Source: a virus
Virus record (IMG/VR): IMGVR_UViG_3300047560_001789
Span: 1 to 23,507 of that record
Length of the DNA stretch: 23,507 nt
Strand: one strand, 5' to 3'
Shown: piece by piece, positions 1 to 23,507 of the stretch
Layout of the letters: every line of letters starts with the position of its first letter
Numbering within the stretch: the stretch's first letter is position 1
Position numbers and translations under genes: made by a program
Notes under the pieces: model-generated
Seen by the model: the letters and a program-made list of their open reading frames with translations, nothing else
What the model was told of the DNA's origin: nothing
The model's database searches: none

Positions 1-892
1 ATATAAAAAGTTAGAAGTGTTCCGTATTACAGGCGGCGAGCCTTTGATGGATGTTAACACATTTCGCGTTTTAGATTACATTTATGAAAATCCTAATACA
101 TGGTTAGAGGTAAGTGTAACAAGTAACTTTTGCCCTCCTAAACAAGAACTAATGGATAAATTTATTGACAAACTTAAAAAATTAGAAGAAATTCAAATTT
201 GGGAAGATAAGGAACGTTGGAATCCAGGCAGCGGAAACAACTGGTATGTTAACATGGCAATTAAGAATTTTGCTGTGTTTGTAAGTCTCGATAGTGTAGG
301 TAAACAAGCAGAATACATTCGTAGCGGTTTGGATTATGAACTAATGCAAAAAAATGTTCGCACACTGTTAGACGAAACTTGTAATACTACATTAACTTTT
401 ATTAACACATTTAATATCCTTAGTGTTCCTAAGTTTAAGGATTTCTTAAAATACATACTTGAATTGCGTCAAGCGTACAGCAGAGAAAATCAAGGTATTA
501 AGTATATTCCAATTCACGATCCTTGGACTAAACATAACGATTATGAAATACATCCTCGTCAGCGTGTGTGGTTTGATATTCCGTTATTGCGTAGCCCGGA
601 GTGGATGGATTATAGAAACCTTCCTAAAAAGTTTGAAAGTTACTTACAAGAAGGCATTGACTTTATGAAAGAAAATGTTGAATCAGGAAACTTTGCTGGT
701 TTCTATGATTTTGAAATTGCTAAAGCAGAACGTAACTTAGCAATGATGCAAGAAGTAGCTAACGTTGAAATTCGTAATCATACTAACTTTGTTAAGTTTT
801 TTAAACAATACGATGAACGTAAAGGTACAAACTTAGTAGAAACATTTCCGGAGTTAAAAGATTTCGTAAATGGCATTAATATTCAAAGTTGA
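1..892 (+). CDS. Twitch-type radical SAM protein, 5' truncated by window edge
   Basis: This is the C-terminal part of a radical SAM protein. The frame read from base 2 is open to the window edge, so the GTG at 17 is an internal valine codon and not the start. The visible part begins just before the GGEP motif (TGGEPLMD) that contacts SAM in the radical SAM barrel. The iron-sulfur CxxxCxxC motif must lie upstream, outside the window. The later segment FAVFVSLDSVG matches the barrel strand that reads NVSIDGIG and NFSIDALG in the genes at 10877-12145 and 7729-9042. The tail (D-x-x-[RK]-x(2)-N...TFPEL) is also shared with them, which makes it a third paralog of that family (SPASM/twitch-like domain first, then the barrel). 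The gene overlaps the next one by 23 bases. Substrate unknown. Family assignment is firm, function is not. Confidence 0.85.
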   Translation, partial: YKKLEVFRITGGEPLMDVNTFRVLDYIYENPNTWLEVSVTSNFCPPKQELMDKFIDKLKKLEEIQIWEDKERWNPGSGNNWYVNMAIKNFAVFVSLDSVGKQAEYIRSGLDYELMQKNVRTLLDETCNTTLTFINTFNILSVPKFKDFLKYILELRQAYSRENQGIKYIPIHDPWTKHNDYEIHPRQRVWFDIPLLRSPEWMDYRNLPKKFESYLQEGIDFMKENVESGNFAGFYDFEIAKAERNLAMMQEVANVEIRNHTNFVKFFKQYDERKGTNLVETFPELKDFVNGINIQS

Positions 893-1820
893 TACTCCTC
901 CAGATGATTGGATAAATCGCATACCTAGCACTGATCAAGTGTTGTTTATAGACCAACGACTAGAAGGCTGGCCTATATCTGAATACTATGACAAATTACA
1001 TTCAAAATTACTAGATCCTAGTAAAGTAATATTTGCCACTAGTAATCTTAAAGAAGAAGAATTGTATAGTCATTATGTGGCAGACAAAAAACTAAAGATT
1101 GTTTCTTCATTGTTTTTTGCTACTAGGCACAGGCAGTTATTACCAGCATCTTTACATTTAGATTATAAACAAAATAACAATATTAGATTGTTTAGCTGTT
1201 TAAATCGCGTTTATAGAAATCATAGAAAAGCTCTGGTGTTAATGCTACACGACAGAGATTTGTTAAAACATGGCGAAGTAAGTCACAATACTTTTACATA
1301 TATTAATTTTCCAGACTATAAAGAACATAAGTCTTTTAGACAAGAAAACATAGATGCGTTAGCAACTAAACTTCCATTAACAATAGACCAACAAGATTTT
1401 GATGTTAATTGGGCTGACGATTTTTTTAAAGAAACATATTTGAGAACTTGGGTAAGCGTAGTAACTGAAACTTTCTTCTCAGAATATAATAATCAGTCTA
1501 TGTTCTTTAGCGAAAAGATTTTTAAACCAATCCGAGCACACCATCCTTTTATATTAGCAGCCGCACCTGGAAGTTTAACAGCTCTAAAAAATTTAGGGTT
1601 TAAAACATTCGATAATTGGTGGGATGAAAGTTATGACAATATTGTTGATCCTGTTGATAGATTGGAAGCAATATGTGATTTAATAGAAGAACTGTCAACT
1701 TGGTCCAAAGAACGATGGCTAAAAGTATACTCAGAAATTCAACCAAATTTAATAGAAAATTCAACATTGTTACTCAGAACAAACTGGAATGCTCAGTTTG
1801 ACCAGCTAATTACTATATGA
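870..1820 (+). CDS. Putative glycosyltransferase-like protein
   Basis: A 316-residue soluble protein with no signal peptide or membrane segment. The most conserved-looking part is the C-terminal half: FSCLNRVYRNHR at about residues 108-119, then FFSEKIFKPIRAHHPFI at 212-228, then a short loop and LGFKTF...WWDESYD at 242-256. A Ser/Thr-Glu-Lys followed by a Pro-Phe-(I/V) stretch resembles the nucleotide-sugar-binding half of GT-B or fucosyltransferase-like enzymes. From memory, proteins with this SEKxFKPI...GFKTF...DESYD pattern recur in marine phage genomes without assigned function. The start ATG lies inside the preceding gene and the stop overlaps the UDP-sugar dehydrogenase gene by 4 bases, so the two are probably co-translated. 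The sugar-nucleotide neighbour supports a glycosyl-transfer role. It could also be an unrelated phage family. Confidence 0.5.
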   Translation: MALIFKVDTPPDDWINRIPSTDQVLFIDQRLEGWPISEYYDKLHSKLLDPSKVIFATSNLKEEELYSHYVADKKLKIVSSLFFATRHRQLLPASLHLDYKQNNNIRLFSCLNRVYRNHRKALVLMLHDRDLLKHGEVSHNTFTYINFPDYKEHKSFRQENIDALATKLPLTIDQQDFDVNWADDFFKETYLRTWVSVVTETFFSEYNNQSMFFSEKIFKPIRAHHPFILAAAPGSLTALKNLGFKTFDNWWDESYDNIVDPVDRLEAICDLIEELSTWSKERWLKVYSEIQPNLIENSTLLLRTNWNAQFDQLITI

Positions 1821-3001
1821 AGATAGGATATATAGGATTAGGTAAATTAGGATTGCCCTGTGCTGAAATAGTAGCACGTAAAGGGCACGAAGTTGCTGGC
1901 TATGACGTCGACGTTATACATAGCCAGCATATTAAAATGGCCGCAACAATCGCAGATTGCGTCAAAGACAAAGACATAGTATTTGTAGCAGTACCAACAC
2001 CAAACTACAGCGATTACGATGGTAGTGTGCCCAGCGCAGGCACAGAGCCAAAAGATTACAGATATGATATTGTAAAGTCTTGTTTAATACAAGCTGATAA
2101 GCACATGTCTGACGATCAAATACTTGTATTAATTTCAACAGTCCTTCCAGGGACAACACGTAAAGAATTAGGCAAATTAGTTAATAGAACACCATTCATT
2201 TATAACCCTTACTTGATTAGCATGGAAAGCGTATCGACTGATATGGTTCGTCCTGAGATGGTTTTAATCGGAACAGAATTTGGCGTTCGTACTGCTCCTG
2301 TAGAAAAACTTATAAGTTTTTATGAATCGATAATGGAGAAAGACGCACGTTACGAAGTTGGTACGTGGGACGAATGTGAATGTATTAAGATGTTTTATAA
2401 CACTTATGTTACCATGAAAATTACAATGGCTAATATGATACAAGATGTTGCCGTTAAGCAAGGTAACATAAATGTCGACTTTGTTACTACAGCATTAGCA
2501 AAAAGCGTTGAGAAAATTACAGGCCCTGCGTACATGAAATCTGGTATGGGCGACGGCGGATGTTGTAGACCACGCGATAATATTGTATTGCGTAAACTAG
2601 CTAAAGATTTAGATTTAGGTTATGATATGTTTGACTGGATGATGCTAGCCAGAGAAAAACAAGCAGAAAATCTAGCCAAGGAACTTGTTAAGTATGCCGA
2701 GCAAGTTGGTCAACCAATTTATATACACGGCAAAGCATACAAATCCGGAGTACCATATTGCCAAGGAAGTTATAGCTTACTTGTCGGACAGTATTGCGAA
2801 GCAATGGGTTATAATCCAATTTATGTTGATCCATTAACTAAAGACGTATGCGACGAAAGTACAGGAGTCATTTTGTTAGCACACGGCAAAGAATATTGTC
2901 CAATAACAGCCGGAAGTATTGTAATTGATCCTTGGAGGTGTTATAATAATGATGCCGTACGAGTGATACATTACGGCAATACGAGGTTATTCAATGTATG
3001 A
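1817..3001 (+). CDS. UDP-glucose/GDP-mannose dehydrogenase family protein
   Basis: A 394-residue NAD(P)-dependent nucleotide-sugar dehydrogenase, the family that oxidises a sugar C6 hydroxyl to a carboxylate (UDP-glucose to UDP-glucuronate in the best-known members). The Rossmann motif GLGKLG is at residues 7-12. STVLPGTT at 107-114 matches the STVxPGT element. ECIKMFYNTYVTMKI at 188-202 carries the catalytic-region Lys191 and Asn195. GDGGCCRPRD at 245-254 supplies the nucleophile Cys250 and Asp254. The usual NPEFLREG segment is altered: NPYLISMES at 130-138 lacks both glutamates that assist catalysis in characterised UDP-glucose dehydrogenases. The C-terminal UDP-binding domain is somewhat short. 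It starts inside the glycosyltransferase-like gene and overlaps the next gene by 8 bases. Fold certain. Exact substrate and full four-electron activity uncertain. Confidence 0.88.
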   Translation: MKIGYIGLGKLGLPCAEIVARKGHEVAGYDVDVIHSQHIKMAATIADCVKDKDIVFVAVPTPNYSDYDGSVPSAGTEPKDYRYDIVKSCLIQADKHMSDDQILVLISTVLPGTTRKELGKLVNRTPFIYNPYLISMESVSTDMVRPEMVLIGTEFGVRTAPVEKLISFYESIMEKDARYEVGTWDECECIKMFYNTYVTMKITMANMIQDVAVKQGNINVDFVTTALAKSVEKITGPAYMKSGMGDGGCCRPRDNIVLRKLAKDLDLGYDMFDWMMLAREKQAENLAKELVKYAEQVGQPIYIHGKAYKSGVPYCQGSYSLLVGQYCEAMGYNPIYVDPLTKDVCDESTGVILLAHGKEYCPITAGSIVIDPWRCYNNDAVRVIHYGNTRLFNV

Positions 3002-4295
3002 TATTATTTTTATTGGAGCAGACACTCCAGATTTTAGAAAATTAAAAGAACGCTTTCCGTTAGCTAAACGAGCTAACACCTTTATTGAAGCAAATCAAAA
3101 AGTTTTTACAAAAATGTTTTGGGTAGTGTACCCTGACATTAAGGTGCGAGATGATTTTCTTTTTGATTACAATGTTCCAGAATGGGACGAAAAATATATT
3201 CATGTTTTTAAGAATGGCCGCAGTTATGACGGTATAGCGTTATTTCCTAAAAACGCAAAAGTATCTAAAAAAGAATTACAGCATCGTTTCTACTTAACAA
3301 TGAAAGAAGTAGAAATAGATGCTAGCGAGCCTAAGCTGTATGATATCTTTGACATTGACACATACGAAGAATATCTCGATGCGTTAGAAAACTCAACGAC
3401 AGATATGTTCTGGATGACTAGCCGTAATTTTAAGCCACATAAAGACTTTGAATTTGACATGTACTTTGAACACTCAAACGTTGAAGATAGGCAACAAAAC
3501 CATTCTTTTATACATCGTGTAGGTACCATCGAAACCTACAATGGTATTATATTGTGTAGCAAACACAAACCACTAAGCAAGAAAGAAATAGAATACAGAT
3601 TTCCTTTACAGCGTAGAGAGTGGGAAATTATCGCCAGTGTTCCACTAAACTATAGTAGGGCTGTTCCTTCCATTGACACTTACGAAGATTATAAAGAGCT
3701 AATGGACAATGCGTACACTACAGAAATGATATGGTTAGTTCCTGCTGACGTTATGCCAGATCCTGAGTTTAAGTTTAACACTTATTTTACACACGATAAC
3801 GAATTTGATAGAACTATCAATCACGTATTTCTTAACGGAGAACACTACGATGGTATTATGCTGTTAAGCAAACATAGTCCTATTAGCGAGCGTGAATTTA
3901 AAAATAGATTCATTATTAATAAGAAAGAATGGGAGATTGTAGCAAGTACTCCTAAAAAGTTTGACATTTTTTATATTGACACTTTTGAAGAATATGAACA
4001 GGCACTAAAAAATACTACCACAGAATTGTTCTGGATGACTAGTAAAAACTTACAACCTGCTCCAGACTTTGATTTTAGTTTATACATTAGTCATCATAAC
4101 AGAGTAGACCGTGAACAGAATCATGCGTTTATTCACCGAGTTGATGGTAAAGATAATTACAACGGTATTTTCTTGTTAAGCAAAAACAAGCCTTTGACTA
4201 AACGCGAAGTAGAATATCGATTCCCTGTAGAACGCAAAGAGTGGGATATTGTTGCTAGCGGTCCAGTAGTGTACGAGCGCTATGTCTTTAATTAA
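2994..4295 (+). CDS. Tandem glycosyltransferase-like repeat protein
   Basis: A 433-residue protein built almost wholly of four diverged repeats of about 100-116 residues (roughly 1-116, 117-220, 221-322, 323-433). Each repeat runs: an (I)DT(Y/F)EEY helix, a W strand such as MFWMTS or MIWLVPADV, a DFxFDxYF stretch, NHxF, a (H)YxGI strand, an SKxxP(L/I)S-(K/E)-(K/R)-E helix, and an FP-x(2)-R-(K/R)-EW-x-I-x-AS end. The same layout occurs in the next gene, whose last copy carries a DGDA (DxD) motif like the metal/nucleotide-sugar site of GT-A glycosyltransferases. None of the four copies here has an intact DxD at that place, so they may bind a glycan or act as structure. A GAGG element about eight bases before the ATG is a plausible ribosome binding site. 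The repeat series runs on into the next gene, overlapping by 14 bases. Confidence 0.7.
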   Translation: MYDIIFIGADTPDFRKLKERFPLAKRANTFIEANQKVFTKMFWVVYPDIKVRDDFLFDYNVPEWDEKYIHVFKNGRSYDGIALFPKNAKVSKKELQHRFYLTMKEVEIDASEPKLYDIFDIDTYEEYLDALENSTTDMFWMTSRNFKPHKDFEFDMYFEHSNVEDRQQNHSFIHRVGTIETYNGIILCSKHKPLSKKEIEYRFPLQRREWEIIASVPLNYSRAVPSIDTYEDYKELMDNAYTTEMIWLVPADVMPDPEFKFNTYFTHDNEFDRTINHVFLNGEHYDGIMLLSKHSPISEREFKNRFIINKKEWEIVASTPKKFDIFYIDTFEEYEQALKNTTTELFWMTSKNLQPAPDFDFSLYISHHNRVDREQNHAFIHRVDGKDNYNGIFLLSKNKPLTKREVEYRFPVERKEWDIVASGPVVYERYVFN

Positions 4296-4575
4296 CTACG
4301 AATGGTATCTCGATAAGTTAAAAAACAGTCCGACGGAAATGTTTTGGTTTGTTCCGCCGGATGTAGTTATTGCTGACAATTTTAAATTCGACATTTACTT
4401 TCCTCCTGAAAATGAATACGACCGTAAAATGAACCATGCCTTCTTAAACGGCAGACATTACGATGGAATTTTTCTTTTTAGTAAACACAGACCTATAAGC
4501 AAAAGAGAGTTTGAACTTAGATTTCCAGTTGAACGTAAAGAGTGGAGTTTAGTTGCTAGTAACCCTAAGCCTTTT
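3342..4575 (+). repeat. Coding tandem repeats 2-5 across two genes, alternating types
   Basis: Protein-level repeats beginning near 3342, 3654, 3963 and 4282, each about 300 bases. Copies 2 and 4 share WMTS-x-N, an FIHRV turn, a YNGI strand and a KPL(S/T)K helix start. Copies 3 and 5 share a VP-x-DV strand, an FLNG-x-HYDGI turn and an (S/R)PIS helix start. This A-B-A-B order points to duplication of a two-repeat unit. At the DNA level the copies are clearly diverged, so the duplication is not recent. A first copy (2994 to about 3341) and a last one (from about 4576) have a different, longer head (DI-x-FI...RxP-x-AKR). Confidence 0.65.
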
Positions 4576-5241
4576 GATATTGTTTTTATTAGTTACAACG
4601 AACCTAACGCAGATGAAAACTACAAAAAGCTATGTGAAAGATATCCTAATGCTAAACGTGTACACGGTGTAAAAGGAATTCATAACGCACATATCGAAGC
4701 GGCCAAGTTATCTAATACAACTATGTTTTGGGTTATTGACGGTGACGCAGTTTTGTTAGATGATTTTAATTTAACATACCATGTACCTTATTATAGCAAA
4801 AACAATGTGTTTGTTTGGCGCAGTCGTAATCCTATTAACAATTTAGAATATGGGTATGGCGGTGTCAAGTTGTTACCAAAAGAACTAACACTTAACATGG
4901 ATGTTAATAGCGCTGACATGACAACAAGTATCAGCGACAACTTCAACATTATGGATGATGTTAGCAATATTACATCGTTTAACACAGACCCTTTTAATAC
5001 TTGGAAAAGTGCGTTTAGAGAATGTGCCAAGTTAGCTAGTGGTATTATTGCTAGACAAGACAATCGAGAATCGATAGAACGTTTAGACGTTTGGTGTACA
5101 GTTGCTAACGGCAACTTTAGTGAATATGCTTTAGCAGGAGCAAACGCAGGTAAAGAATTTGTAAACGCACATCCAGATGAGCTAAACAAGATTAATAATT
5201 TTGACTGGTTATATGAGCAATTTTCAAGACATTCCATTTGA
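4282..5241 (+). CDS. GT-A-like glycosyltransferase with N-terminal repeat
   Basis: A 319-residue protein. Residues 1-98 are one more copy of the repeat that fills the preceding gene (MFWFVPPDV at 20-28, NHAFLNGRHYDGI at 51-63, EWSLVAS at 87-93). Residues 99-205 form the fuller domain: DIVFISYNEPN at the first strand, RYPNAKRVHG, then TTMFWVIDGDAVLLDDF at about 146-162. The DGDA there (153-156) is a DxD-type metal/nucleotide-sugar site typical of GT-A glycosyltransferases. The remaining 110 residues are less familiar and may be acceptor-binding. It starts 14 bases before the end of the upstream repeat gene with no clear ribosome binding site. Its first residues continue the repeat register of that gene, so the two may be one gene split by a one-base indel or a programmed shift. 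It probably transfers a sugar; donor and acceptor unknown. Confidence 0.65.
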   Translation: MSLINYEWYLDKLKNSPTEMFWFVPPDVVIADNFKFDIYFPPENEYDRKMNHAFLNGRHYDGIFLFSKHRPISKREFELRFPVERKEWSLVASNPKPFDIVFISYNEPNADENYKKLCERYPNAKRVHGVKGIHNAHIEAAKLSNTTMFWVIDGDAVLLDDFNLTYHVPYYSKNNVFVWRSRNPINNLEYGYGGVKLLPKELTLNMDVNSADMTTSISDNFNIMDDVSNITSFNTDPFNTWKSAFRECAKLASGIIARQDNRESIERLDVWCTVANGNFSEYALAGANAGKEFVNAHPDELNKINNFDWLYEQFSRHSI

Positions 5242-6178
5242 GCGTATAATTAGTTTCGGACAACGAACTATGTTGGACCGTCCTTTATTCAGCGTAAGTT
5301 GGATATTAGGCAGATTCTGTAATTATAAATGTAGTTACTGCTGGCCATATGCTCGCAGTGATGAAGTAGATCACCAGCCGCTTGAGGTATATAAAAATAC
5401 TGTCGACGAGATTAAGCGTCAGGCGCGAGCCAATGGATTTGACCAGTTCCATTGGTCGTTCAGCGGCGGTGAACCTACAGCGTATAAACATCTGCTAGAA
5501 TTAGTAAGGCATTTAGAAAGCGATTCGAGTTGCCCGTATCAAAGTGTACACATGACAACTAATCTTAGTCCTAGTATTAATTGGTGGAATTCTTGGAGTA
5601 GTGTTACACAGCCTTTACAGCGCAGGAGTATTACAGCAAGTTTCCATGCTGAGTTTGCCAAGGAAAAAGATTTCGGTGATAAATGTTTAGCCTTAATGTA
5701 TAATGGAGTTTATGTAACAATTAACCAAGTTATGGTTCCTGAGAAATTTTACGAAACACTAGAACGTTGCGAAAGATTTAGAACCAGGGGAATTAATGTA
5801 ACTCTTAAGCCGCAAAGCAATGAATCTGCTTCTGCTATAGTAAATGGATACTCGGAAGATATGATTAAAATCATGAAAGATGAGTTTGCCCAACAAACAG
5901 AATATCAAATAGAATTGACTGACGGAACAAATAAGTATTATATAGATCAAGCAGAACGTTTCAATGCGCTAGGATTTAACAAGTTTTCGGGTTGGGCATG
6001 TAATAGCGGATATCAAAGTGTTATCATAAGAGGAACAGAAGTTAAGCGTAGTTATAGTTGCCATGACGCACCCTTAGGAACACTAGAAAATTTTAAACTT
6101 TTTGATGCTCCACAAAAATGTACAACTCCTAGCTGTGTTAGTTCAGCGGATAGCAAAATACCAAAATGTATAATTTAA
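5213..6178 (+). CDS. Radical SAM protein with C-terminal cysteine cluster
   Basis: A 321-residue radical SAM enzyme from the ATG at 5213; a TTG at 5201 would add four residues and looks less likely. The cluster-binding CNYKCSYC gives Cys36, Cys40 and Cys43, and SGGEPT follows as the SAM-contacting GGEP. The C-terminal region has WACNSG (Cys263), SCHD (Cys283), CTTPSC (Cys303, Cys308) and a final KC. This set fits an auxiliary iron-sulfur site as in SPASM/twitch proteins. The same signature occurs in the genes at 9033-10013 and 9991-10884, so these three are paralogs. The gene begins inside the glycosyltransferase gene and ends inside the next radical SAM gene. Enzymes of this kind abstract hydrogen from a substrate with a 5'-deoxyadenosyl radical. 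The substrate cannot be told. Confidence 0.85.
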   Translation: MSNFQDIPFERIISFGQRTMLDRPLFSVSWILGRFCNYKCSYCWPYARSDEVDHQPLEVYKNTVDEIKRQARANGFDQFHWSFSGGEPTAYKHLLELVRHLESDSSCPYQSVHMTTNLSPSINWWNSWSSVTQPLQRRSITASFHAEFAKEKDFGDKCLALMYNGVYVTINQVMVPEKFYETLERCERFRTRGINVTLKPQSNESASAIVNGYSEDMIKIMKDEFAQQTEYQIELTDGTNKYYIDQAERFNALGFNKFSGWACNSGYQSVIIRGTEVKRSYSCHDAPLGTLENFKLFDAPQKCTTPSCVSSADSKIPKCII

Positions 6179-7149
6179 CAGATATTAAAAGTGTTCATTT
6201 AGAACTGACAACAAAGTGCCAAGCACGTTGTCCTATGTGCCCTCGCAGATTAAATGGTGGCATGTTAAATCCCCTATTTGAAATTACTGATATTAATTTA
6301 GAAACTTTTAAAGAATGGTTTCCTGATAGTTTTATTAAGCAATTGAATAAGTTGTTTATGTGCGGAAACTTAGGAGATCCGATTATAGGCCATGATTGTT
6401 TAGAAATCTTTCAGCATTTGCGCGAAGTCAATCCTAGTATGTTATTAGCAATGCACACTAACGGTTCTGCTAGAAATATTTCGTTCTGGGAAACATTAGC
6501 AAAATTAGATGTTAAGATTACTTTTGGTATTGATGGCTTAGAAGATACGCATAAGTTGTATCGTATTGATACAGACTTTAATAAAATTATTGAGAACGCA
6601 ACAGCGTTTATTAATGCCGGTGGTTATGCCGAATGGCACATGCTAGCGTTTGAACACAATGAACATCAAATAGGTGCTTGCCAACATATGGCAGATATGT
6701 TAGGGTTTAAGAAATTTACAATCAAGCATACATCGAGGTTCAAAGACGATAAGTTAAATGTAATAGATGACACAGGCAAGACTACCCATGTTTTACGACC
6801 TACTCAACGAAGTAAAGAAATGATGCCAAAGATTATTCAATCTTTGAAAGAAGAAAAGCCTTACGTAAGTTGTAAAGTACAAAATAACAAAGAAATTTAT
6901 GTTAGTGCTAATGGTACAATAAGCCCGTGCTGTTGGTTAGACTTTAGTTGGATTTTACCGTCGCAAGATAGTCGCATAGATTATATGGATAAGATAGGCA
7001 AGTTTCCAACACTACGAGAACAATCTTTAGAATCTATTTTTAATTCTGGTTTCTTTAATGATATCGCTAACACTTGGCAAGATAAACCTCTGATGGAATG
7101 TAGTAGACAATGTGGGTCGTTTGACAAATGCGGAGAGCAGTTTAAATGA
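6166..7149 (+). CDS. Radical SAM/SPASM protein
   Basis: A 327-residue radical SAM protein with the usual domain order. The N-terminus carries CQARCPMC (Cys18, Cys22, Cys25). The GGEP position is less canonical (MCGNLGDPI), as in many SPASM proteins. The C-terminus is a recognisable SPASM domain: a Cys at VSCKV, then NGTISPCCWLD, LESIFNSGFF, and a closing CSRQCGSFDKC. Proteins of this shape include peptide-modifying maturases and sugar or alcohol dehydrogenases, which bind extra 4Fe-4S clusters through these cysteines. It overlaps the upstream gene by 13 bases and the downstream methyltransferase-like gene by 4 (ATGA). It differs from the other radical SAM genes here in lacking both the N-terminal SPASM and the CTxxxC tail, so it is a separate lineage. 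Substrate unknown. Confidence 0.87.
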   Translation: MYNLTDIKSVHLELTTKCQARCPMCPRRLNGGMLNPLFEITDINLETFKEWFPDSFIKQLNKLFMCGNLGDPIIGHDCLEIFQHLREVNPSMLLAMHTNGSARNISFWETLAKLDVKITFGIDGLEDTHKLYRIDTDFNKIIENATAFINAGGYAEWHMLAFEHNEHQIGACQHMADMLGFKKFTIKHTSRFKDDKLNVIDDTGKTTHVLRPTQRSKEMMPKIIQSLKEEKPYVSCKVQNNKEIYVSANGTISPCCWLDFSWILPSQDSRIDYMDKIGKFPTLREQSLESIFNSGFFNDIANTWQDKPLMECSRQCGSFDKCGEQFK

Positions 7150-15816: not shown

Positions 15817-17143
15817 AACGCTGGCAGGATCGCCAGATATTGTCTTTATATTTTTAGATAGGATTAGTCAATGCCAAACTAAATGGACGGCAGAGCTAAT
15901 TAAAAATTTAAGCGACTATGTCCTAACTAAAATCAACGTACACGGGTTCAATGTAATACAGGGATTGGATGAAGATGCGTTATTAAAAGAAGCCGCACAG
16001 GATTATAACTATGCGGTTGTATTAAGTACAGGCACAGAGTTCTTAAACGGTGATGAATTTTTCCACGAGGTTGAAAAACTTGTTTATTCTCATACAGACT
16101 TTTTCTTAATGGGCCATATTCCTGACAGGGACGATGGCTATTATGAATTACATGAACAATGTTATATAATAAACCTAAATACTTATGAAGAATTAGGTTT
16201 TCCAGTCGTAGGAAAGTTTCAATATTATAGTTCTCACGAACAAGTGAAGCCTATTCGCAGTAAAGATAACGTTCACGATGATTATACTCCTGTATGGATA
16301 AAGCCAGGCAGTCCTTGGCGTGTACATGACTACAAACATAAGTGGCATGGATGGAATATTTTAAGTACGGCACTTAAAAATGACAAACCTGTATTAGTGT
16401 TTGGCCCAGAATTTAGAGATAATAAACGTTATTATTACCCTAATTACGAACCGGCATTTATTAATGCTTGTACATACTTGTACGGCAAAAACGAAGTAGC
16501 GGCACAAACATTATTTTACCCGTACAATACAGAAATATTAGCAGAAGTAGTTTGTAAAGAACCTATAAGACAGTTAGTAATACAAGCGTCAGGCTTACAA
16601 TTTGTTGATTATCTAGCATTACACGGATACAACGAAAATACAGTTGTGAGATTTGTTGATTATAACTTATTTGCTTTAGAATGTATGGAACACATTGTAG
16701 AGCATTGGGATGGAAATAACTACTTAGACTTTGTTAAAGGTTACGTTAGTGCTAGATCTAGTTTCTTAAAAAATAAAACACAAGAGTGGATCACATTAAC
16801 AGGGTTTGAACAAAAAGTCAATCCTTCTGTATGGCAAGATATTATTAATACAGTTAAGTTTGAATTCGCACATCAAGATTTAGTCCTCAATAAAGGATTA
16901 GAAGTAAGTTCTTGGTTAGATAATGTACCTAATACTATAGTTCATTTAAGTCATATTTTTAATTATGATCCTGCGGCCCCGTTTGTTCCTTTAAGACATA
17001 GAATCTACAATGAGAAACTATTAAAGGATAAAATTAAAAAGTATAACCCTGATGCGTATATTGTATTAGTTGATGAAGTATCTGAATTTTTTAAAGACAA
17101 ATTACCTACATGGCATCTAAACGGAGAATGGCATGGTATATGA
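15794..17143 (+). CDS. Two-domain protein: GT-A-like plus possible methyltransferase fold
   Basis: A 449-residue protein I do not recognise as a named family. Residues 15-140 resemble a glycosyltransferase-A-like core: PDIVFIFLD, an ALLKEA helix, then YAVVLSTGTEFLNGDEF, the place where GT-A enzymes have DxD; here it reads TGTE, so the metal site is not intact. The C-terminal half (from about 255) has a Rossmann-like series: QLVIQASGLQFVDYLALHG, VVRFVDYN, ALECMEHIVEHWDG, then NTIVHLSHIF. This resembles SAM-dependent methyltransferases with a weak glycine loop. It may join sugar handling to methylation, or be a scaffold. It sits between oxygenase-like genes, overlapping the AspH-like gene by 11 bases. 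Confidence 0.45.
   Translation: MSNMVKFETLAGSPDIVFIFLDRISQCQTKWTAELIKNLSDYVLTKINVHGFNVIQGLDEDALLKEAAQDYNYAVVLSTGTEFLNGDEFFHEVEKLVYSHTDFFLMGHIPDRDDGYYELHEQCYIINLNTYEELGFPVVGKFQYYSSHEQVKPIRSKDNVHDDYTPVWIKPGSPWRVHDYKHKWHGWNILSTALKNDKPVLVFGPEFRDNKRYYYPNYEPAFINACTYLYGKNEVAAQTLFYPYNTEILAEVVCKEPIRQLVIQASGLQFVDYLALHGYNENTVVRFVDYNLFALECMEHIVEHWDGNNYLDFVKGYVSARSSFLKNKTQEWITLTGFEQKVNPSVWQDIINTVKFEFAHQDLVLNKGLEVSSWLDNVPNTIVHLSHIFNYDPAAPFVPLRHRIYNEKLLKDKIKKYNPDAYIVLVDEVSEFFKDKLPTWHLNGEWHGI
17123..17126 (+). promoter_or_regulatory. Ribosome binding site of the 17133 gene
   Basis: GGAG six bases before the ATG at 17133, inside the end of the preceding gene. It is one of the few clear Shine-Dalgarno elements in the window and fixes this start. 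Confidence 0.5.
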
Positions 17144-17657
17144 TTCTAGCAGGTTGTTGTTAAGAGATACAATTAACAAATTAATACCACAATTTAGAAC
17201 AGAGTTTTTAGCAGTACACGGTACAAATACGTCTGACATTCCACTATATGATACAGGTAAAGAATTAGATGTTCATAAAAAGTGGAGAATGTGTGTATTA
17301 AAGAATATGGGCGTGTGGGACAACCAATCTAAAACATTATATCCTACACTTAATCAGTTTGTAGAAGAAATGGGAGATACTTGTCGTAGTGTAGGATATA
17401 GTATATTAGAACCGGGCGGCAATGTTATTACACATACTGATACAGAAGAAAACCACGAAGATTATGTTATTGTTCATGCTCCTTTGATAGTGCCTGAAGG
17501 TGACGTTGGCTTTATAGAAAATGATGAACGAGGTAAATGGATAGAAGGCGAATGTTTCATTCTTGATGTAGAAAGTCCACATTCTATTTGGAACTATACA
17601 GACAAGCCTCGTGTAGTAGTTCTATTTGAATTATTAAAGAAGGATGTTTATGTTTAA
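17133..17657 (+). CDS. Aspartyl/asparaginyl beta-hydroxylase-like protein
   Basis: A 174-residue AspH-family-like oxygenase. YSILEPGGNVITHTD at 89-103 ends in the HxD (His101, Asp103). VHAPLIVPEGDVGFI at 114-128 is the HxPLxVP strand typical of AspH and places His115. EGECFILDVESPHSIWNYTDKPRV at 138-161 gives the distal His150 and Arg160 that would bind 2-oxoglutarate. Members hydroxylate Asp/Asn side chains in proteins, or free amino-acid derivatives. It is related to the gene at 18242-18958 (both have PLIVPEGD), with a dehydrogenase gene between them. Unlike that paralog it keeps the acidic iron ligand. Confidence 0.78.
   Translation: MVYDSSRLLLRDTINKLIPQFRTEFLAVHGTNTSDIPLYDTGKELDVHKKWRMCVLKNMGVWDNQSKTLYPTLNQFVEEMGDTCRSVGYSILEPGGNVITHTDTEENHEDYVIVHAPLIVPEGDVGFIENDERGKWIEGECFILDVESPHSIWNYTDKPRVVVLFELLKKDVYV
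17640..17644 (+). promoter_or_regulatory. Ribosome binding site choosing the second ATG
   Basis: AAGGA five bases before the ATG at 17650. The ATG at 17644, two codons earlier, overlaps this element and so cannot use it. The later start is therefore preferred for the dehydrogenase. Confidence 0.5.
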
Positions 17658-18252
17658 GAATATAGGAATAACAGGACATACTAAAGGTATAGGTAAAGGA
17701 CTGTATGATCATTTTTCTAAATTAGGTTGTAATGTATTGGGTTTTAGTTTAGAAAACGGTTTTGATATTAGTAAAAATCGTGATGAGATTATTAGCTGGA
17801 CTAAAGAATGCGATTTGTTTTTTAATAATGCTTACAGCGGATATTCGCAAGTTGAATTAGCTAAATTGTGGCAACAAGAACATTGGCACAATAATCATTA
17901 TATCATTAATACAAGTTCAATGGCCGCAGAACCTTTAGCTGATATACCAAATAATTTTCCATGGTTAAAACCTTACGGAGAAGAAAAGTATGCTATTAAT
18001 AAAGTTAGTTGGGAAATAAATCATAGCGGCAGTAAATGTAAAAGTATTGTAATAATGCCAGGTGTATGTCAAACTAATTTTTATAATCCTTACGACACAG
18101 AAGAACAAAACGGCCTAGAGCTGTACAAACGTGTGATGGAAACAGATAGTATTATTACAGTAGACGATTTAGTTAAAACTGTTGATTTAGTTTTACAAAG
18201 CATTAACGGTAGAAATTTTATATCACAGATAACGGTGTTAAATGGATACTAA
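17650..18252 (+). CDS. Short-chain dehydrogenase/reductase
   Basis: About 200 residues, a short member of the SDR superfamily of NAD(P)-dependent oxidoreductases. The cofactor loop TGHTKGIG is at residues 8-15. The NNA motif follows (59-61). INTSS at 86-90 carries the catalytic Ser, and YAINK at 114-118 the Tyr-Lys pair. IMPGVCQTNF is the PG-x(3)-T stretch after the sixth strand. It lacks the longer substrate loop of classical 250-residue SDRs. It lies between two AspH-like hydroxylase genes, overlapping both by 8-11 bases, which suggests it may oxidise a hydroxyl group put in by one of them, or an intermediate of the same pathway. Reaction direction and substrate unknown. Confidence 0.85.
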   Translation: MFKNIGITGHTKGIGKGLYDHFSKLGCNVLGFSLENGFDISKNRDEIISWTKECDLFFNNAYSGYSQVELAKLWQQEHWHNNHYIINTSSMAAEPLADIPNNFPWLKPYGEEKYAINKVSWEINHSGSKCKSIVIMPGVCQTNFYNPYDTEEQNGLELYKRVMETDSIITVDDLVKTVDLVLQSINGRNFISQITVLNGY

Positions 18253-18958
18253 TGAACAATTAATATGGCATAGACATGAGTTGTCTATATTTGAGGAACT
18301 GCTATCCTTTAAAGAAGGGTTAATCAAGGACTACATGGAAGGTTATGCCGACCATAAAGAAGCAATCCTAGCACAATCTGAAAATACCATTAGTCTTGAC
18401 AACTATGATAACACACAGATGAATATGGCGGAAGGTATGTTAGTAGTTAGAGATCCAGCTACATTACAGTGGAATACTAACTTTACTGCTTGGCAAAGTG
18501 TAGGGTTAAAAAATGTTGTTAAACTTAACGGAAAAGTTGAACTGTACGAAACAATGCCTGATGAACAGTTAGCAAAATATCCAACTTGTAAACAAATGAT
18601 GGACAAGTACGGAGATGACTTGTTTGGATTAGTGTATAGTTCAATAGGTCCTTACAGTATTTTACAAAGACATGTTGGCCCAGAGAATATAGACGGTGAA
18701 TATATTAGAATACACATTCCTCTTATTGTGCCTGAAGGTGATATCTTTTTAGAAGTACAAAATCACGAAGTAACATGGAAAGACATATTTGGTTTTAACA
18801 ACCAATATTTACATAGCGCTCATAATTATTCTAACGAATGGCGCACAATTATGATAGTAGACTTATCTCGTAAGGCATGTGGTTTGCCTCCGGGAAGGCA
18901 TTACAGTGAAGGCGGACAAGAACGTGAAAAGCCGTTCGTCCGAGGGTGGGTATTTTGA
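18242..18958 (+). CDS. Aspartyl/asparaginyl beta-hydroxylase (AspH-like)
   Basis: A 238-residue protein and the one closest to classical AspH. YSILQRHVGPEN at 138-149 matches the HxGPxN signature with iron ligand His144. YIRIHIPLIVPEGD at 154-167 is the RxHxxLxxP strand (Arg156, His158). QYLHSAHNYSNEWRTIMIVDLSR at 188-210 supplies the second His (191), the N that follows it, and Arg201. The acidic ligand two residues after the first His is Gly146. Mammalian AspH also lacks this Asp/Glu and works with a two-histidine site, so the loss need not inactivate it. The N-terminal 130 residues look helical. It follows the SDR gene with an 11-base overlap. Confidence 0.82.
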   Translation: MDTNEQLIWHRHELSIFEELLSFKEGLIKDYMEGYADHKEAILAQSENTISLDNYDNTQMNMAEGMLVVRDPATLQWNTNFTAWQSVGLKNVVKLNGKVELYETMPDEQLAKYPTCKQMMDKYGDDLFGLVYSSIGPYSILQRHVGPENIDGEYIRIHIPLIVPEGDIFLEVQNHEVTWKDIFGFNNQYLHSAHNYSNEWRTIMIVDLSRKACGLPPGRHYSEGGQEREKPFVRGWVF

Positions 18959-19371
18959 TTAATGAATGGATTGAACGTATAACAAAACCTAGAGAAGAAC
19001 TAGGAGGGTTTGGCGTATGCCCTTATGCTAAAGGAGCCAAATACGAACTTATAGAAACTGATGGTGGCGATATTAATCCACCTCCTTGGGATTTTGAATT
19101 AATAATTTACAAGCTGCCGGCTGAGTATTCGCCCGATGAAGTGTGTGCTATAGCTAGCGAATATAACAAGATGTATCCTGAATTGGTATTTTTACCAGAC
19201 CCTAAAGATAAAGATACATATATTAATGGCGTACAGACTAACAACGGAAAGTATAATTTGATACTTTGCCAATGGAGAGATAATTTAAATAACGCTAGAG
19301 AAAAATTAGCCAATACAACATATTATTCGTATTGGTCAGAAGAATACTTAAAAGAAATACTTAGTCAATGA
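18955..19371 (+). CDS. Unrecognised small protein with GFGVCPYA motif
   Basis: About 138 residues. I do not recognise the family with confidence. A GFGVCPYAKGAKY motif near residue 21, then two beta-strand-like runs (ELIIYKL; NLILCQW) and a long C-terminal helix, faintly recall the CPFA motif of DUF1415-type proteins. A TTG at 18955 overlapping the upstream TGA (TTGA), with GAGG about nine bases before it, is preferred; a GTG at 18946 would add three residues. It overlaps the following radical SAM gene by 4 bases and so is part of the same operon. A single cysteine in the motif might be functional. Confidence 0.6.
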   Translation: MINEWIERITKPREELGGFGVCPYAKGAKYELIETDGGDINPPPWDFELIIYKLPAEYSPDEVCAIASEYNKMYPELVFLPDPKDKDTYINGVQTNNGKYNLILCQWRDNLNNAREKLANTTYYSYWSEEYLKEILSQ

Positions 19372-20855
19372 ATCATGCTTTAATTTTTAGTGTCCATAGC
19401 ATGGGTGTTAGGAGACCTCCTGGCCCGTACCGCATTGCCTCATTTTTAAGAGAGCACGAATGGGACGTTGAAGTAATTGACTATACTCTACAATGGGACG
19501 AAGAACAATTAAAAGAACTAGTTAAATCTAGAGTCACATCGCAAACTGTATTCTTTGGATTCAGTTGTTTCTTTTATTACTGGACTGAACAGATGGACAA
19601 TTTTGTAAGTTGGCTAAAACAAAATTATCCTAATGTAAAAACAGTACTTGGTGGCCAAAGTCGTGCTATTATGCGTACAGAAAATATAGATTACTATATT
19701 CACGGTTACGGAGAAATGGCAATTCTTGAATTAACTAAAGCAATGATTGGTAACACCAATTCTAAGTTAATTTACGATCCTTTATTCTTTGGTAGTAAGA
19801 AAGTTATAACAGCAAATCATGCTTACCCTGCGTACCCTATGAAAAGCCTTAGCATCAAGTACGAGGACAGAGATGACATACAGCCGTGGGAATGGCTTAC
19901 TATGGAGTTTACTCGCGGGTGTGTGTTTAAATGTGCTTACTGTAATTTTCCAATATTAGGTGTTAAAGAAGACCATACAAGAACTGCTGAAGATTTTGAA
20001 AGCGACGTTAAAGAAAACTACGAACGTTGGGGTGTTAAAAATTATTATGTTGCCGACGAAACATTTAATGATTACAGTGAAAAGATTTTTAAGTATGCTG
20101 ATGTAGCTAACAAGTTAAATTTTGAAACTTTGTTTACAGGTTTTGTACGAGCAGATTTGTTAATAGCCAGACCACAAGACTGGGAAGCAATGGCAAATTT
20201 AGGATTCTACGGACATTTCTACGGAATAGAATCTATGAACAAAGCTACAGTTAAGGCTATTGGAAAAGGAATGGATCCTGAAAAAGTTAAAGCGGGATTA
20301 TTAGACATTAAAAAATATTTTTCTAGTAAAGGTCCGTATAGAGGATCTATAGGTATTGTTGTAGGATTGCCTTACGAAACTGTTCAGAGTCAATTTGAAA
20401 CATTCGACTGGTTAGCTAAGAACTGGGCTGGAGAAAGTTCTCATGTATGGCCTTTAGAGATTCCGCTAGATCCTAAGCAAGACGTTATGTCAACCCTTTC
20501 ACAAAATTACGGAAAGTTTGGTTACAGAGAGTCAGATAAAATGCCGAACGAAATACCTAAAGAAGTTTTAGCTATGGGTCAAGAAGAAAGCAGGATTACA
20601 CATATTAATAAGTGTCTTGTATGGGAAAATGATAATATGAGTTTTGCCGATGCTTGTAAGATAGCTGACGACTGGACATTAAGAGCTATACGCAATGAGA
20701 TAGATGTTGGTATTGGAATGTTTGCCTTTGGTGACTTTACATACCCTGATGTTCCTGTTGAGCATATCTTAAAAAATAAAAAGATGGGTGATCCTGTCGA
20801 TAACGATATAAGTTCTAGAGTTAAAGAATATATTATTAAAAAACTAAACAGATGA
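19368..20855 (+). CDS. Class B-like radical SAM protein with degenerate B12-binding N-terminus
   Basis: A 495-residue radical SAM protein. Residues 1-125 have the Rossmann-like layout of a cobalamin-binding domain (PPGPYRIASFLRE, VDVIDYT-like strand, VFFGFSCFFYY, VLGGQ, YYIHGYGE). The DxHxxG motif that ligates cobalt is absent, as in several members that no longer bind B12 or bind it without that ligand. CVFKCAYC at 185-192 is the cluster site (Cys185, Cys189, Cys192), followed by YYVADETFN and FGIESMNKAT-like barrel strands. B12-type radical SAM enzymes methylate carbons or do other radical chemistry. It is chained by ATGA overlaps to the unrecognised gene before it and the amidinotransferase after it, so a shared pathway is likely. 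Confidence 0.85.
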   Translation: MNHALIFSVHSMGVRRPPGPYRIASFLREHEWDVEVIDYTLQWDEEQLKELVKSRVTSQTVFFGFSCFFYYWTEQMDNFVSWLKQNYPNVKTVLGGQSRAIMRTENIDYYIHGYGEMAILELTKAMIGNTNSKLIYDPLFFGSKKVITANHAYPAYPMKSLSIKYEDRDDIQPWEWLTMEFTRGCVFKCAYCNFPILGVKEDHTRTAEDFESDVKENYERWGVKNYYVADETFNDYSEKIFKYADVANKLNFETLFTGFVRADLLIARPQDWEAMANLGFYGHFYGIESMNKATVKAIGKGMDPEKVKAGLLDIKKYFSSKGPYRGSIGIVVGLPYETVQSQFETFDWLAKNWAGESSHVWPLEIPLDPKQDVMSTLSQNYGKFGYRESDKMPNEIPKEVLAMGQEESRITHINKCLVWENDNMSFADACKIADDWTLRAIRNEIDVGIGMFAFGDFTYPDVPVEHILKNKKMGDPVDNDISSRVKEYIIKKLNR

Positions 20856-21892
20856 TTTATACTAACTGGGATCCTCTGAAAGAAGTCATTGTTGGAAACT
20901 GTTACCACGGACATGCTAGTAATAAACTCGCAAACATCTTAGCAGAAACAAAAGAAGACTTAGATAATTTATCTGAGTATTTGACTAAACTTGGTGTGCG
21001 TGTTCATCGCCCAGTTGTTACTCAATTTCTTAATGATATAGATTTAGGAAACTTTAAAGTACAACACGCTACAGCACCTATTGTTCCTAGGGATCAGTAT
21101 CTTGTATACGGAAAAACAATTTATCAAACTTATACAAGTATGCCCGATAGGTATTTAGATAGCATTAATTATTATCATATTTTTAAAGAGTTTTACGACC
21201 GTGGCTATAATTGGATCAGTCAACCTCCTCCTGTGCTAGACACATTAGTAGGAAAGTGGTGGGCAGAAGGTGACAAAATTTATGGCGAGCAGTTAGCGGA
21301 TCGTATACTGTGGCATACTGCTACAATGTTTAAGTGCGGAGATAAGTTAATTACAAACACAAAAGGTCCTGGAACACAACAGGGTTTAGAGTGGATGAAG
21401 CGTAACTTGCCTGAAAATACTATTGTACCTGCTGGAGCAACACATCAACAAGGTTTTGGTCATATCGACCACGGATGGTTTATGACTAACGACGACTTAG
21501 TATTCTGTGTAAACAAAGACTGGGTTCCAGAGCCTTTACAAAATAAGCAAATAGTAGAACTACAAGATCACTTTGAAAAATTTGATGATGTAAAATTTAT
21601 CACAGACTACTCTAGTACCGAAGGTAAGTTTAGTGATGCGTGGATTGAAAAGTGGTTAACTGAATGGAAGGGTTACGCACAGGAAGTATTTTTTGATAGT
21701 AACGTCTTAGTTATCGATAGTAATAACGTATTGTTTAGCAACCACCAACCTGCTATTTTTAAAGTTATGGAAAAGTACGGAATTAATTGCCATGTAGTTC
21801 CGCAACGACACGGATTATTTTGGGAAGCAGGTGTTCACTGCTTGACTTTAGACTTGGTCCGTGAGGGTCGGAATAGAACTGTAGTCACTTAA
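20852..21892 (+). CDS. Glycine amidinotransferase-like protein
   Basis: A 346-residue member of the amidinotransferase family, which moves the amidino group of arginine to an amine such as glycine or inosamine phosphate. WDPLKEVIVG at 6-15 is the family's N-terminal signature. VPRDQYLVYG at 78-87 matches the PRD...VxG strand. GHIDHGWF at 203-210 holds the catalytic His204 and Asp206. GVHCLTLDLVREG near the end holds the nucleophile Cys330 that carries the amidino group. These core residues look intact, so it is probably active. The acceptor amine is unknown. It overlaps the - strand aminotransferase tail-to-tail by 45 bases, so its last codons are constrained in both strands. Confidence 0.87.
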   Translation: MIYTNWDPLKEVIVGNCYHGHASNKLANILAETKEDLDNLSEYLTKLGVRVHRPVVTQFLNDIDLGNFKVQHATAPIVPRDQYLVYGKTIYQTYTSMPDRYLDSINYYHIFKEFYDRGYNWISQPPPVLDTLVGKWWAEGDKIYGEQLADRILWHTATMFKCGDKLITNTKGPGTQQGLEWMKRNLPENTIVPAGATHQQGFGHIDHGWFMTNDDLVFCVNKDWVPEPLQNKQIVELQDHFEKFDDVKFITDYSSTEGKFSDAWIEKWLTEWKGYAQEVFFDSNVLVIDSNNVLFSNHQPAIFKVMEKYGINCHVVPQRHGLFWEAGVHCLTLDLVREGRNRTVVT

Positions 21893-23038
21893 TGCTTGTA
21901 AGAGTCTGTACTCGATATCTTCAAACCACATAGCAGGAGCATTAAGCGGCACTACAAACAAAACACCAGTGCCTCCTTCATTCCACATACCAGCGTTTAT
22001 TCCATACTGATACAGGAAGCGTTCAAATGTACTATCCATCGGTTTCTCATTTAGTAGTACTAGGTTAAACAATAGTCCGCAGTTTGTAAAGTCTTTAATT
22101 AAATGTCTGTCCTTAAGACGCTGGCACATTAACTTACCCCAACTTTCTAACCTAGCCTGACGTTCTAATAACTGTTCGCTTTCAATTACATCTAAGTATG
22201 CTAAAGCAGAGTATATTCCACTTAAACTAAAACTGTAACTAAACCCATGTACAAATACATCGTATTTGACTTTGTTAAAAATTTTGTCATTAGCACAAAC
22301 GGCACTTAGTGGAAAGTATCCACCGGTTAATGCTTTGCCCATTGTAAAAATGTCCGGACGAACTTTTCCAGTCCACCCAAAGAACGAACCCGTCTTCCCG
22401 CCGCACAATGCGATGTCATCGACAATAAGAACTATGCCCTTATGGGTACATATTGCTCTAAGTCCTTCCCAGAATTCAACGCCCGGATCATACAAGCCAT
22501 TTTGCCAACTGCTAGTTTCAACTATAACAGCCGACAGATCATCTGTAATCATATCTAAATTATAGTCGCTTACAATACAGCGTGGGTCTTTGCCAAACAA
22601 ATCTGTCATGTAAGTTGCGTCACTAACACTACTGCTTAGATATGTACTTCCGTGATAACTTTTTTTGAAACCTAGAAACTTATTACGACCGTTGTACATT
22701 TGTGCTAAACGTAAAGCGCCCTCTACAGCATCGCTACCGCTTAAGGCAAAAGCACTTTTGTATCCTCCGCTCATGGAAGCAATACGATCTGTTAGCTCTA
22801 CTACGGCATCATTAGTAATATAAAACTCTCCACCGCAGAATGGATTATCTGACATACGTTTAGCAACAGCATTTACTATATCTGTACGTTTGAATCCTAA
22901 TGGAAAGCATCCACAAGCACCCAGACTTAAATCTAAGTATTCGTTTCCGTTTTCTATAAATCCGTAGTCTGTGTATTCTTCAATTTTACGAATCGGTTGT
23001 ACATCATTTGTTGCGTAAGGAAAAATAATGTTTGTCAT
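21848..23038 (-). CDS. Class III aminotransferase, glutamate-1-semialdehyde aminomutase-like
   Basis: A 396-residue PLP-dependent class III aminotransferase. SGSDAVEGALRLAQ at 100-113 binds the PLP phosphate. KKSYHGST at 125-132 stacks on the ring (His129). VDDIALCGGKTGSFFGW at 206-222 has Asp207 for the PLP nitrogen. TMGKALTGGYFPLSAV at 232-247 carries Lys235, the Schiff-base lysine. Overall it is nearest to glutamate-1-semialdehyde 2,1-aminomutase and aminosugar/amino-acid aminotransferases of that branch. Whether it mutates or transaminates cannot be read here. It starts with an ATGA overlap with the oxygenase-like gene upstream. Next to the convergent amidinotransferase, it may make the amine acceptor for amidination (inference). 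Confidence 0.87.
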   Translation of the reverse strand: MTNIIFPYATNDVQPIRKIEEYTDYGFIENGNEYLDLSLGACGCFPLGFKRTDIVNAVAKRMSDNPFCGGEFYITNDAVVELTDRIASMSGGYKSAFALSGSDAVEGALRLAQMYNGRNKFLGFKKSYHGSTYLSSSVSDATYMTDLFGKDPRCIVSDYNLDMITDDLSAVIVETSSWQNGLYDPGVEFWEGLRAICTHKGIVLIVDDIALCGGKTGSFFGWTGKVRPDIFTMGKALTGGYFPLSAVCANDKIFNKVKYDVFVHGFSYSFSLSGIYSALAYLDVIESEQLLERQARLESWGKLMCQRLKDRHLIKDFTNCGLLFNLVLLNEKPMDSTFERFLYQYGINAGMWNEGGTGVLFVVPLNAPAMWFEDIEYRLLQALSDYSSIPTLTDQV

Positions 23039-23507
23039 AAAATGCTTAATGATAAAGAAATACGTTTTTTAGTAGGATCTAAGTTTTCAACACTATGTAT
23101 AGTTCTGGTATCTAATCTATGCCAGCGACCTTTTTCTATTTTTATTTCTTCTAATAGATCAAGTCGTTCGTACGGAAAAACTGTTTGGGCATACGCAGTC
23201 AAATGACTGAATTCTTTCTTAGGTGCCCAAAAACAAGTTGATGTTTCACCACCTGTGTCGATGATATAATTATACGCAAAACTTCGCATTTCGTCAATAT
23301 GCGGAGTGATAGTTTTTCCACCATACATAGCTTGAATACTAACGTGTGCTATGTTTAAGTTTATATTGCTTTTAACCCAATCGTTAACTTCGTCGGTTAC
23401 TTCCAAAAAATCAAATTCTGCTAAATTGGTAAAGTGATTCCATACTTCAGACAAATGATATCCTAGCGAGTTGTCTGGATTGTATTCTACATTTTTAATA
23501 GCGTTGA
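23035..23507 (-). CDS. 2OG-Fe(II) oxygenase-like protein, truncated by window edge
   Basis: The frame is open to the right edge of the window, so the TTG at 23454 is an internal codon and the true start lies outside. About 157 residues are visible. TPHIDEM gives the HxD pair, followed by the strand SFAYNYIIDTGG. RTIHSVENLDPTKKRISLSLSI near the end gives the distal His and an Arg that would bind 2-oxoglutarate. This is the DSBH pattern seen in the + strand oxygenase-like genes, but on the - strand and paired with the class III aminotransferase by a 4-base ATGA overlap. The N-terminal visible part has a VWNHF helix of no known role. Substrate unknown. Confidence 0.68.
   Translation of the reverse strand, partial: NAIKNVEYNPDNSLGYHLSEVWNHFTNLAEFDFLEVTDEVNDWVKSNINLNIAHVSIQAMYGGKTITPHIDEMRSFAYNYIIDTGGETSTCFWAPKKEFSHLTAYAQTVFPYERLDLLEEIKIEKGRWHRLDTRTIHSVENLDPTKKRISLSLSIL

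Follow-up and report, generated by a model that had tools for sequence, protein, structure and literature searches.

The window analysed here is a 23,507-base stretch of viral DNA (positions 1 to 23,507 of the IMG/VR record IMGVR_UViG_3300047560_001789) that consists of 27 contiguous, mostly overlapping genes, the first and the last of which are cut by the window ends (Table 1). The genes overlap at each same-strand junction, and the sole gap, of approximately 11 bases, separates the divergent genes g13 and g14. An earlier note on this DNA read it as a biosynthetic or modification island in which radical S-adenosylmethionine (SAM) proteins and iron oxygenases are combined with a nucleotide-sugar dehydrogenase, a short-chain dehydrogenase/reductase (SDR), an amidinotransferase and an aminotransferase. 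All these enzymes are present, and the conserved gene order and active-site residues described below bear out this reading. The island is conserved and widespread among viruses, and its gene arrangement is not due to chance.

Table 1. Genes of the window, with the evidence for each assignment (counts of sources refer to the 74 sources over which family presence was scored; PLP, pyridoxal phosphate; ORF, open reading frame)
Gene	Position	Strand	Assignment	Evidence
g1	2..892	+	radical SAM protein, C-terminal part; 5' end beyond window	GGEP; PHROG 14086 radical SAM 1e-8
g2	870..1820	+	glycosyltransferase-like by sequence resemblance (putative)	ORF; distant relatives in related islands
g3	1817..3001	+	UDP-glucose/GDP-mannose dehydrogenase family	PF03721 1e-14; PF00984 1e-12; PHROG 9148 1e-80
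g4	2994..4295	+	tandem repeats homologous to part of g5	several BLASTP segments
g5	4282..5241	+	glycosyltransferase-like, one repeat (putative)	PF00535 0.0075, weak, below cut-off
g6	5201..6178	+	radical SAM, C-terminal auxiliary cysteines; core	PF04055 3.8e-13; family in 56/74 sources
g7	6166..7149	+	radical SAM/SPASM; core	SPASM above cut-off; PF04055 9e-6, below; 61/74 sources
g8	7146..7742	+	class I SAM methyltransferase fold (predicted); core	AlphaFold model and VIA match
g9	7723..9042	+	radical SAM, N-terminal twitch domain; core	NF033640; 67/74 sources
g10	9033..10013	+	radical SAM	PF04055 7e-14; 45/74 sources
g11	9991..10914	-	radical SAM, C-terminal auxiliary cysteines; core	PF04055 1.5e-11
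g12	10877..12196	-	radical SAM, N-terminal twitch domain; core	NF033640; 69/74 sources
g13	12132..12884	-	PP-loop ATPase, distant QueC relative	PHROG 1550 QueC-like 1.6e-5
g14	12896..13567	+	AspH-like 2-oxoglutarate (2OG)-Fe(II) oxygenase	invariant H81, D83, H125, R135; profile match 7v4f 5e-18
g15	13564..14094	+	double-stranded beta-helix (DSBH) oxygenase	invariant H99, D101, H156; model
g16	14091..14627	+	DSBH oxygenase, g15 paralogue	joint alignment with g15; conserved H101, D103, H158
g17	14624..15181	+	oxygenase, HxD...H...R site	H70, D72, H144, R154 invariant, 15 relatives
g18	15169..15816	+	AspH-family oxygenase	PF05118 3e-14; H121, D123, H174, R184 invariant, 14 relatives
g19	15794..17143	+	conserved, unknown family; possibly glycosyltransferase-like	66% mean column identity, 15 sequences
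g20	17133..17657	+	AspH-family oxygenase	PF05118 9e-22; H101/D103/H150/R160 conserved, 4 relatives
g21	17644..18252	+	SDR-like	PF00106 4.5e-4, below cut-off; Y111/K115 invariant, 13 relatives
g22	18242..18958	+	AspH-family oxygenase, HxG site	PF05118 1.5e-12; H144, H191, R201 invariant, 5 relatives
g23	18946..19371	+	small conserved protein	PHROG 10325 1.7e-23; 71% mean column identity
g24	19368..20855	+	B12-binding radical SAM	PF04055 7.7e-14, above cut-off; PF02310 1.2e-7
g25	20852..21892	+	amidinotransferase	profile matches; H204, D206, H207, C330 invariant
g26	21848..23038	-	class III aminotransferase (PLP)	PF00202 6.7e-46; K235 invariant
g27	23035..23505	-	oxygenase, HxD...H...R; 5' end beyond window	H69, D71, H137, R148 invariant, 13 relatives

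Eight radical SAM genes had been claimed for the window. Seven are complete (g6, g7, g9, g10, g11, g12 and g24) and are identified by Pfam or NCBIfam profiles and conserved cysteines, whereas the eighth, g1, is truncated: it retains GGEP but lacks CxxxCxxC because its N-terminal half lies outside the window, and full-length relatives are encoded in longer contigs. PF04055 scores above the cut-off in g6, g9, g10, g11, g12 and g24; g7 falls below it but contains a SPASM domain above the cut-off. With the CX3CX2C motif, these scores place g6, g10, g11 and g24 in the radical SAM superfamily, whereas g9 (424.6 bits) and g12 (336.2 bits) are nearly full-length members of NF033640, for which the NCBIfam cut-off is 170. 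The auxiliary-cluster domain, with its conserved cysteines, is N-terminal in g9 and g12; in g6, g10 and g11, C-terminal auxiliary cysteines are conserved. In six families, each compared over 50-72 relatives, the CX3CX2C cysteines never vary and the auxiliary-cluster cysteines are conserved as well (for example, C36/40/43 and C263/283/303/308 are invariant among the relatives of g6), so that profile scores and residue conservation rule out chance motif matches. The B12-binding domain of g24 (PF02310) scores 32.0 bits against a cut-off of 32.1. Viperin was rejected as an assignment for g10 and g11, which score approximately 50 bits against NF038283 (cut-off 180), with a match limited to the generic N-terminal 125 or so residues. 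No maturase model for ribosomally synthesized and post-translationally modified peptides (RiPPs) reaches its cut-off in the window proteins. In 12 related sources, there is also a radical SAM family with an HMPTM N-terminal zinc-ribbon domain in its representative (L044:2704-3744).

The eight genes described in the earlier note as oxygenase-like with HxD...H...R patterns all have iron ligands conserved among their relatives; the sites are thus not lost in most of them, but one departs from the pattern, the g22 site being H144-x-G...H191...R201, the two-His arrangement of AspH rather than HxD (only 5 relatives compared). PF05118 above the cut-off together with a 2OG iron site, of the two-His HxG type in the case of g22, makes g18, g20 and g22 members of Asp_Arg_Hydrox. 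With 16.3 bits against a PF05118 cut-off of 22.6, g14 stays outside this family, yet its closest solved structure by profile is the beta-hydroxylase Cpz10 (7v4f, 5e-18), and g14 may work like an Asp_Arg_Hydrox member. Cpz10 is a bacterial antibiotic enzyme, the beta-hydroxylase of caprazamycin biosynthesis, and g14 is its phage relative, the likeness being one of sequence profile (PMC9814697). There is no relevant Pfam match for g15, g16, g17 or g27. In VIA, the AlphaFold model of g15 (pLDDT 93) resembles both 2OG oxygenases and prolyl hydroxylases, with Z up to 13.7 over 131 residues at 2.5 A, so that a DSBH fold with HxD...H is assigned to g15 by the model and to g16 by alignment.

The remaining enzymes differ in how firmly they can be assigned. 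By predicted fold, g8 is a class I methyltransferase (pLDDT 94.8; VIA Z 17.4 to methyltransferases over 171 residues at 2.5 A); by sequence, it cannot be assigned confidently to any family. Profile matches of g25 include HsvA (2e-32), inosamine-phosphate amidinotransferase (9e-30), SxtG and human AGAT, and homology with conservation of the active-site His, Asp and Cys places it among the arginine amidinotransferases. The YxxxK motif of g21 is invariant despite the weak SDR Pfam score. The PP-loop ATPase recognized in the earlier note, g13, has an invariant SGGADS PP-loop and, also invariant among relatives, C213/C234/C237/C240, a QueC-like four-cysteine set, but it is only a distant QueC relative. 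Its identification as QueC was rejected: the window protein has no Pfam match and does not reach the PF06508 cut-off, which its relatives graze, one of 10 records lying above it and only together with neighbouring pieces. Neither g13 nor g19 has a meaningful PDB match, and g2 has no meaningful Pfam or PHROG match. The glycosyltransferase-like proteins of the earlier note accordingly remain candidates, g5 through its weak PF00535 score and g2 and g19 through resemblance. The relatives of g5 in related islands are 55-58% identical to it, and g4 aligns with g5 at 34-48% identity in the four best BLASTP segments; g4 (window 2994-5241, with g5) looks like tandem degenerate copies, as if a glycosyltransferase-like part had been multiplied. 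Related islands also encode a tryptophan halogenase (PF04820, 3e-93; L115:9300-10865, in the 265-kb contig G003) and a carbamoyltransferase of the PF02543/PF16861 type (L101:12626-14098, in the 331-kb contig G002).

The conservation of the island is apparent from scans of IMG/VR seeded with different genes, which share some contigs, so that the loci are not all independent. At least 588 stretches encode a relative of g11, the best 80 at 65-84% identity, and for g8, relatives are encoded in at least 578 viral stretches. The g11 family and order counts refer to the best approximately 80 of the at least 588 loci, in most of which the core (g6-g12) has a consistent order, joined by relatives of g14 and g15/g16. 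At least four other core genes accompany g8 in 30 of the 47 g8-seeded loci of at least 9 kb. The g25-seeded scan yielded 23 loci, approximately 17 of which are colinear for g14-g15/16-g17-g18-g19-g21-g23-g25, followed by g26/g27 in reverse; g20, g22 and g24 are variably present within the oxygenase block. The island thus consists of a radical SAM core to which an oxygenase/amidinotransferase block is joined in a subset. The genes co-occur in a conserved order; independent movement without such co-occurrence, which would have counted against the reading of the earlier note, was not found. In the four contigs compared, the island core proteins are conserved to about the same degree (mostly 45-73%) as the structural and packaging proteins (mostly 30-79%).

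Although the window itself lacks phage structural genes, as had been pointed out, such genes are found near the island in longer contigs, and it is these that identify the carriers. The contigs concerned are 158-331 kb long and encode terminase and, in some, gp23 and tail- or virion-like proteins. TerL is encoded in five of the 16 records tested and T4 gp23 in three, indicating that the carriers are large T4-like phages. The TerL of the 265-kb contig shares 52% identity with its counterpart in PA5oct-like Pseudomonas jumbo phages. Ten long records contain 8-19 radical SAM matches each. In four contigs, tail- or virion-protein PHROGs lie within approximately 20 kb of the island, and in one, the gene for a 4416-aa protein adjoins it. 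The tail-fibre-like proteins appear to differ between contigs, whereas the enzymes are conserved.

A profile scan with two degenerate peptide patterns for each protein found no relatives of g8 or g11 in 84,980 bacterial and archaeal genomes; given that each scan relied on two short patterns, it is close prokaryotic relatives that are lacking, and distant ones could be missed. The window DNA has no near match among 50,697 phage records. In the phage collection, g8 and g20 have no protein match and g11 has weak matches only; g24, used as a single-sequence query without an alignment, matched no viral contig.

Clusters of radical SAM genes have been described in several phages. In Campylobacter phages CP220 and CPt10, swapped modules contain five radical SAM genes and an amidinotransferase and are described as interchangeable (PMC2853527). 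The window resembles them in that radical SAM, amidinotransferase and nucleotide-sugar transferase domains are clustered in a large myophage, and g25 and the CP220 amidinotransferase share 28% identity over 90%. However, the radical SAM proteins are only approximately 23-31% alike, g8, g13 and the oxygenase series are unmatched in CP220 and CPt10, and the core of the window is kept in order. By its gene content, the island qualifies as a CP220-type module with g8, g13 and the oxygenases in addition, the likeness being one of kind. The host-recognition clusters of pelagimyophages combine radical SAM cassettes with glycosyltransferases that are read as host-surface modifiers (PMC7029224). These phages are T4-like as well, their cassettes lie in the tail-fibre region and AspH is one of their core proteins, but the same source describes the cassettes as hypervariable additions and the freshwater members as devoid of radical SAM and lipopolysaccharide genes. 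Two further comparisons, like that with the pelagimyophages, rest on published descriptions. The marine 183-kb T4-like TARA_ERS488813_N000010 has a comparable number of radical SAM genes, 12, treated there only as Fe-S proteins (PMC5332604), and the Aeromonas jumbo phage 332-Vera, which belongs to Chimallinviridae, a lineage other than that of the island carriers, has eight, amid baseplate and tail-fibre genes in a structural cluster (PMC12390700). Within the open-licence PMC literature, the consulted parts of PMC2853527, PMC7029224, PMC5332604 and PMC12390700 give no experimentally shown function for a cassette. What is new here, compared with the known cassettes, is the conserved order, the oxygenase series and the core proteins without close prokaryotic relatives. 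Radical-SAM-rich phages have been termed highly unusual since 2010 and are still unexplained; a conserved set with intact active sites in hundreds of metagenomic virus contigs supplies defined genes for testing the product and purpose of such cassettes.

From the observed enzyme families, catalytic residues, linkage and conservation of the genes, and from the identity of the phages and the location of the island in them, we infer, with a probability of roughly 0.4, that the island builds and attaches a heavily tailored, guanidino-bearing sugar or peptidyl-sugar group, by which the surface of either the infected cell or the virion is altered. In such a pathway, g3 and other sugar enzymes would supply a nucleotide sugar, and the radical SAM set, together with g8, would rebuild C-H bonds through carbon-skeleton or methyl chemistry. 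The AspH and DSBH oxygenases would hydroxylate, g21 would oxidize the hydroxyl to a carbonyl, g26 would aminate the carbonyl and g25 would convert the amine to a guanidino group, after which the glycosyltransferase-like g2, g4, g5 and g19 would attach or polymerize the product. The sequence of hydroxylation, oxidation, transamination and amidination suggested by the enzyme families is chemically coherent and would lead from an unactivated C-H bond to a guanidino group. A surface glycoconjugate is the best supported product because of the nucleotide-sugar dehydrogenase, the glycosyltransferase-like genes, the tailoring enzymes (including the carbamoyltransferase of related islands) and the proximity of tail-fibre-like (host-recognition) genes, and location and enzyme content favour a surface structure over DNA as the target. 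On the infected cell, the group would serve superinfection exclusion or change a receptor; alternatively, it would alter the virion. A bolder version, which we consider doubtful, is that of a virus-restricted pathway of large T4-like phages, about as stable as structural genes, in which a multi-step line of radical SAM proteins and 2OG oxygenases makes a chemically new guanidino-bearing group that is put to use on the virion or the infected cell, a type of tailoring that is not known from bacteria.

Several considerations weigh against a guanidino-bearing surface group. No polymerase, flippase, transport or anchoring enzyme is recognized in the window, the flanks being only partly annotated; the glycosyltransferase labels of g2 and g19 reflect resemblance, and the Pfam score of g5 does not reach the cut-off. 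At least seven radical SAM proteins exceed what is used in any surface-glycan cluster known to us. The usual substrates of class III aminotransferases are amino acids and amines, not sugars, and both SPASM/twitch radical SAM proteins and AspH enzymes often have peptide substrates. Finally, no host is known for the carriers.

A rather unlikely alternative is that the radical SAM/SPASM-twitch and AspH/prolyl-hydroxylase-like enzymes modify either a host protein or a protein of the virion, such as a giant tail fibre, and that glycosyltransferases then add sugars to the hydroxylated residues. Conserved SPASM/twitch-like auxiliary cysteines, the match of the g15 model to AspH and prolyl-hydroxylase folds the nearby tail-fibre-like genes and the adjoining gene for the 4416-aa protein are consistent with this, but the operon includes no linked gene for a substrate protein, the conserved enzymes contrast with tail-fibre-like proteins that appear to vary from contig to contig, and the SDR, aminotransferase and amidinotransferase suit a small molecule or sugar better. 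Another alternative is a diffusible specialized metabolite, a guanidino or peptidyl-nucleoside-like small molecule, which the infected cell would produce to compete, to signal or to inhibit a host enzyme. The profile match of g14 to Cpz10 (PMC9814697), those of g25 to HsvA, inosamine-phosphate amidinotransferase and SxtG, and the halogenase and carbamoyltransferase of related islands point in this direction; as the window shows no nonribosomal peptide synthetase, polyketide synthase, precursor peptide or exporter, and with a slow secondary metabolite presumably gaining a lytic phage little, we consider it unlikely.

That the island hypermodifies host RNA or the bases of phage DNA appears improbable. 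The QueC-like g13 lies in the operon, and GTP cyclohydrolase I, encoded in six of the ten long relatives (G002, G005, G006, G017, G018 and G019), suggests a deazaguanine-type pathway in some carriers, which may be a separate one: where the cyclohydrolase and the island occur together, they lie apart, the ten records contain few QueC-like matches, which are weak, the placeable ones belong to the g13 family, and a thymidylate-synthase-family protein occurs in just one of the ten. A deazaguanine pathway as the purpose of the island was rejected on these grounds, and the oxygenases are AspH/P4H-like, with g13 below the QueC cut-off. Least probable of all is a RiPP cluster with its precursor peptide encoded elsewhere. 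The many SPASM/twitch radical SAM proteins would fit such a cluster, but no maturase model is matched at its cut-off, and the overlapping same-strand junctions leave no intergenic space for a precursor gene in the window, in agreement with the earlier note, which had found none. By comparison with all these, a surface group remains the reading that we favour.

Some minor features of the window and of its relatives concern signals and neighbouring genes. No tRNA or Rfam RNA was detected in the window, and the T4 late promoter TATAAATA is absent from it. The divergent g13/g14 junction (window 12880-12900) contains a near-palindrome, ACATAAATATTTTATGTT, which may act as a promoter in both directions. 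Compared with shuffled sequences, promoter-like sites are not in excess, and terminator-like sites number 12 against 7.4 +/- 2.5. Two conserved proteins encoded next to g6 in 27-30 sources contain HExxH-like motifs (for example, L040:7253-7585 and L017:18046-18711) and are possibly metallopeptidases; both families are also present at positions 219120 and 220413 of G003.

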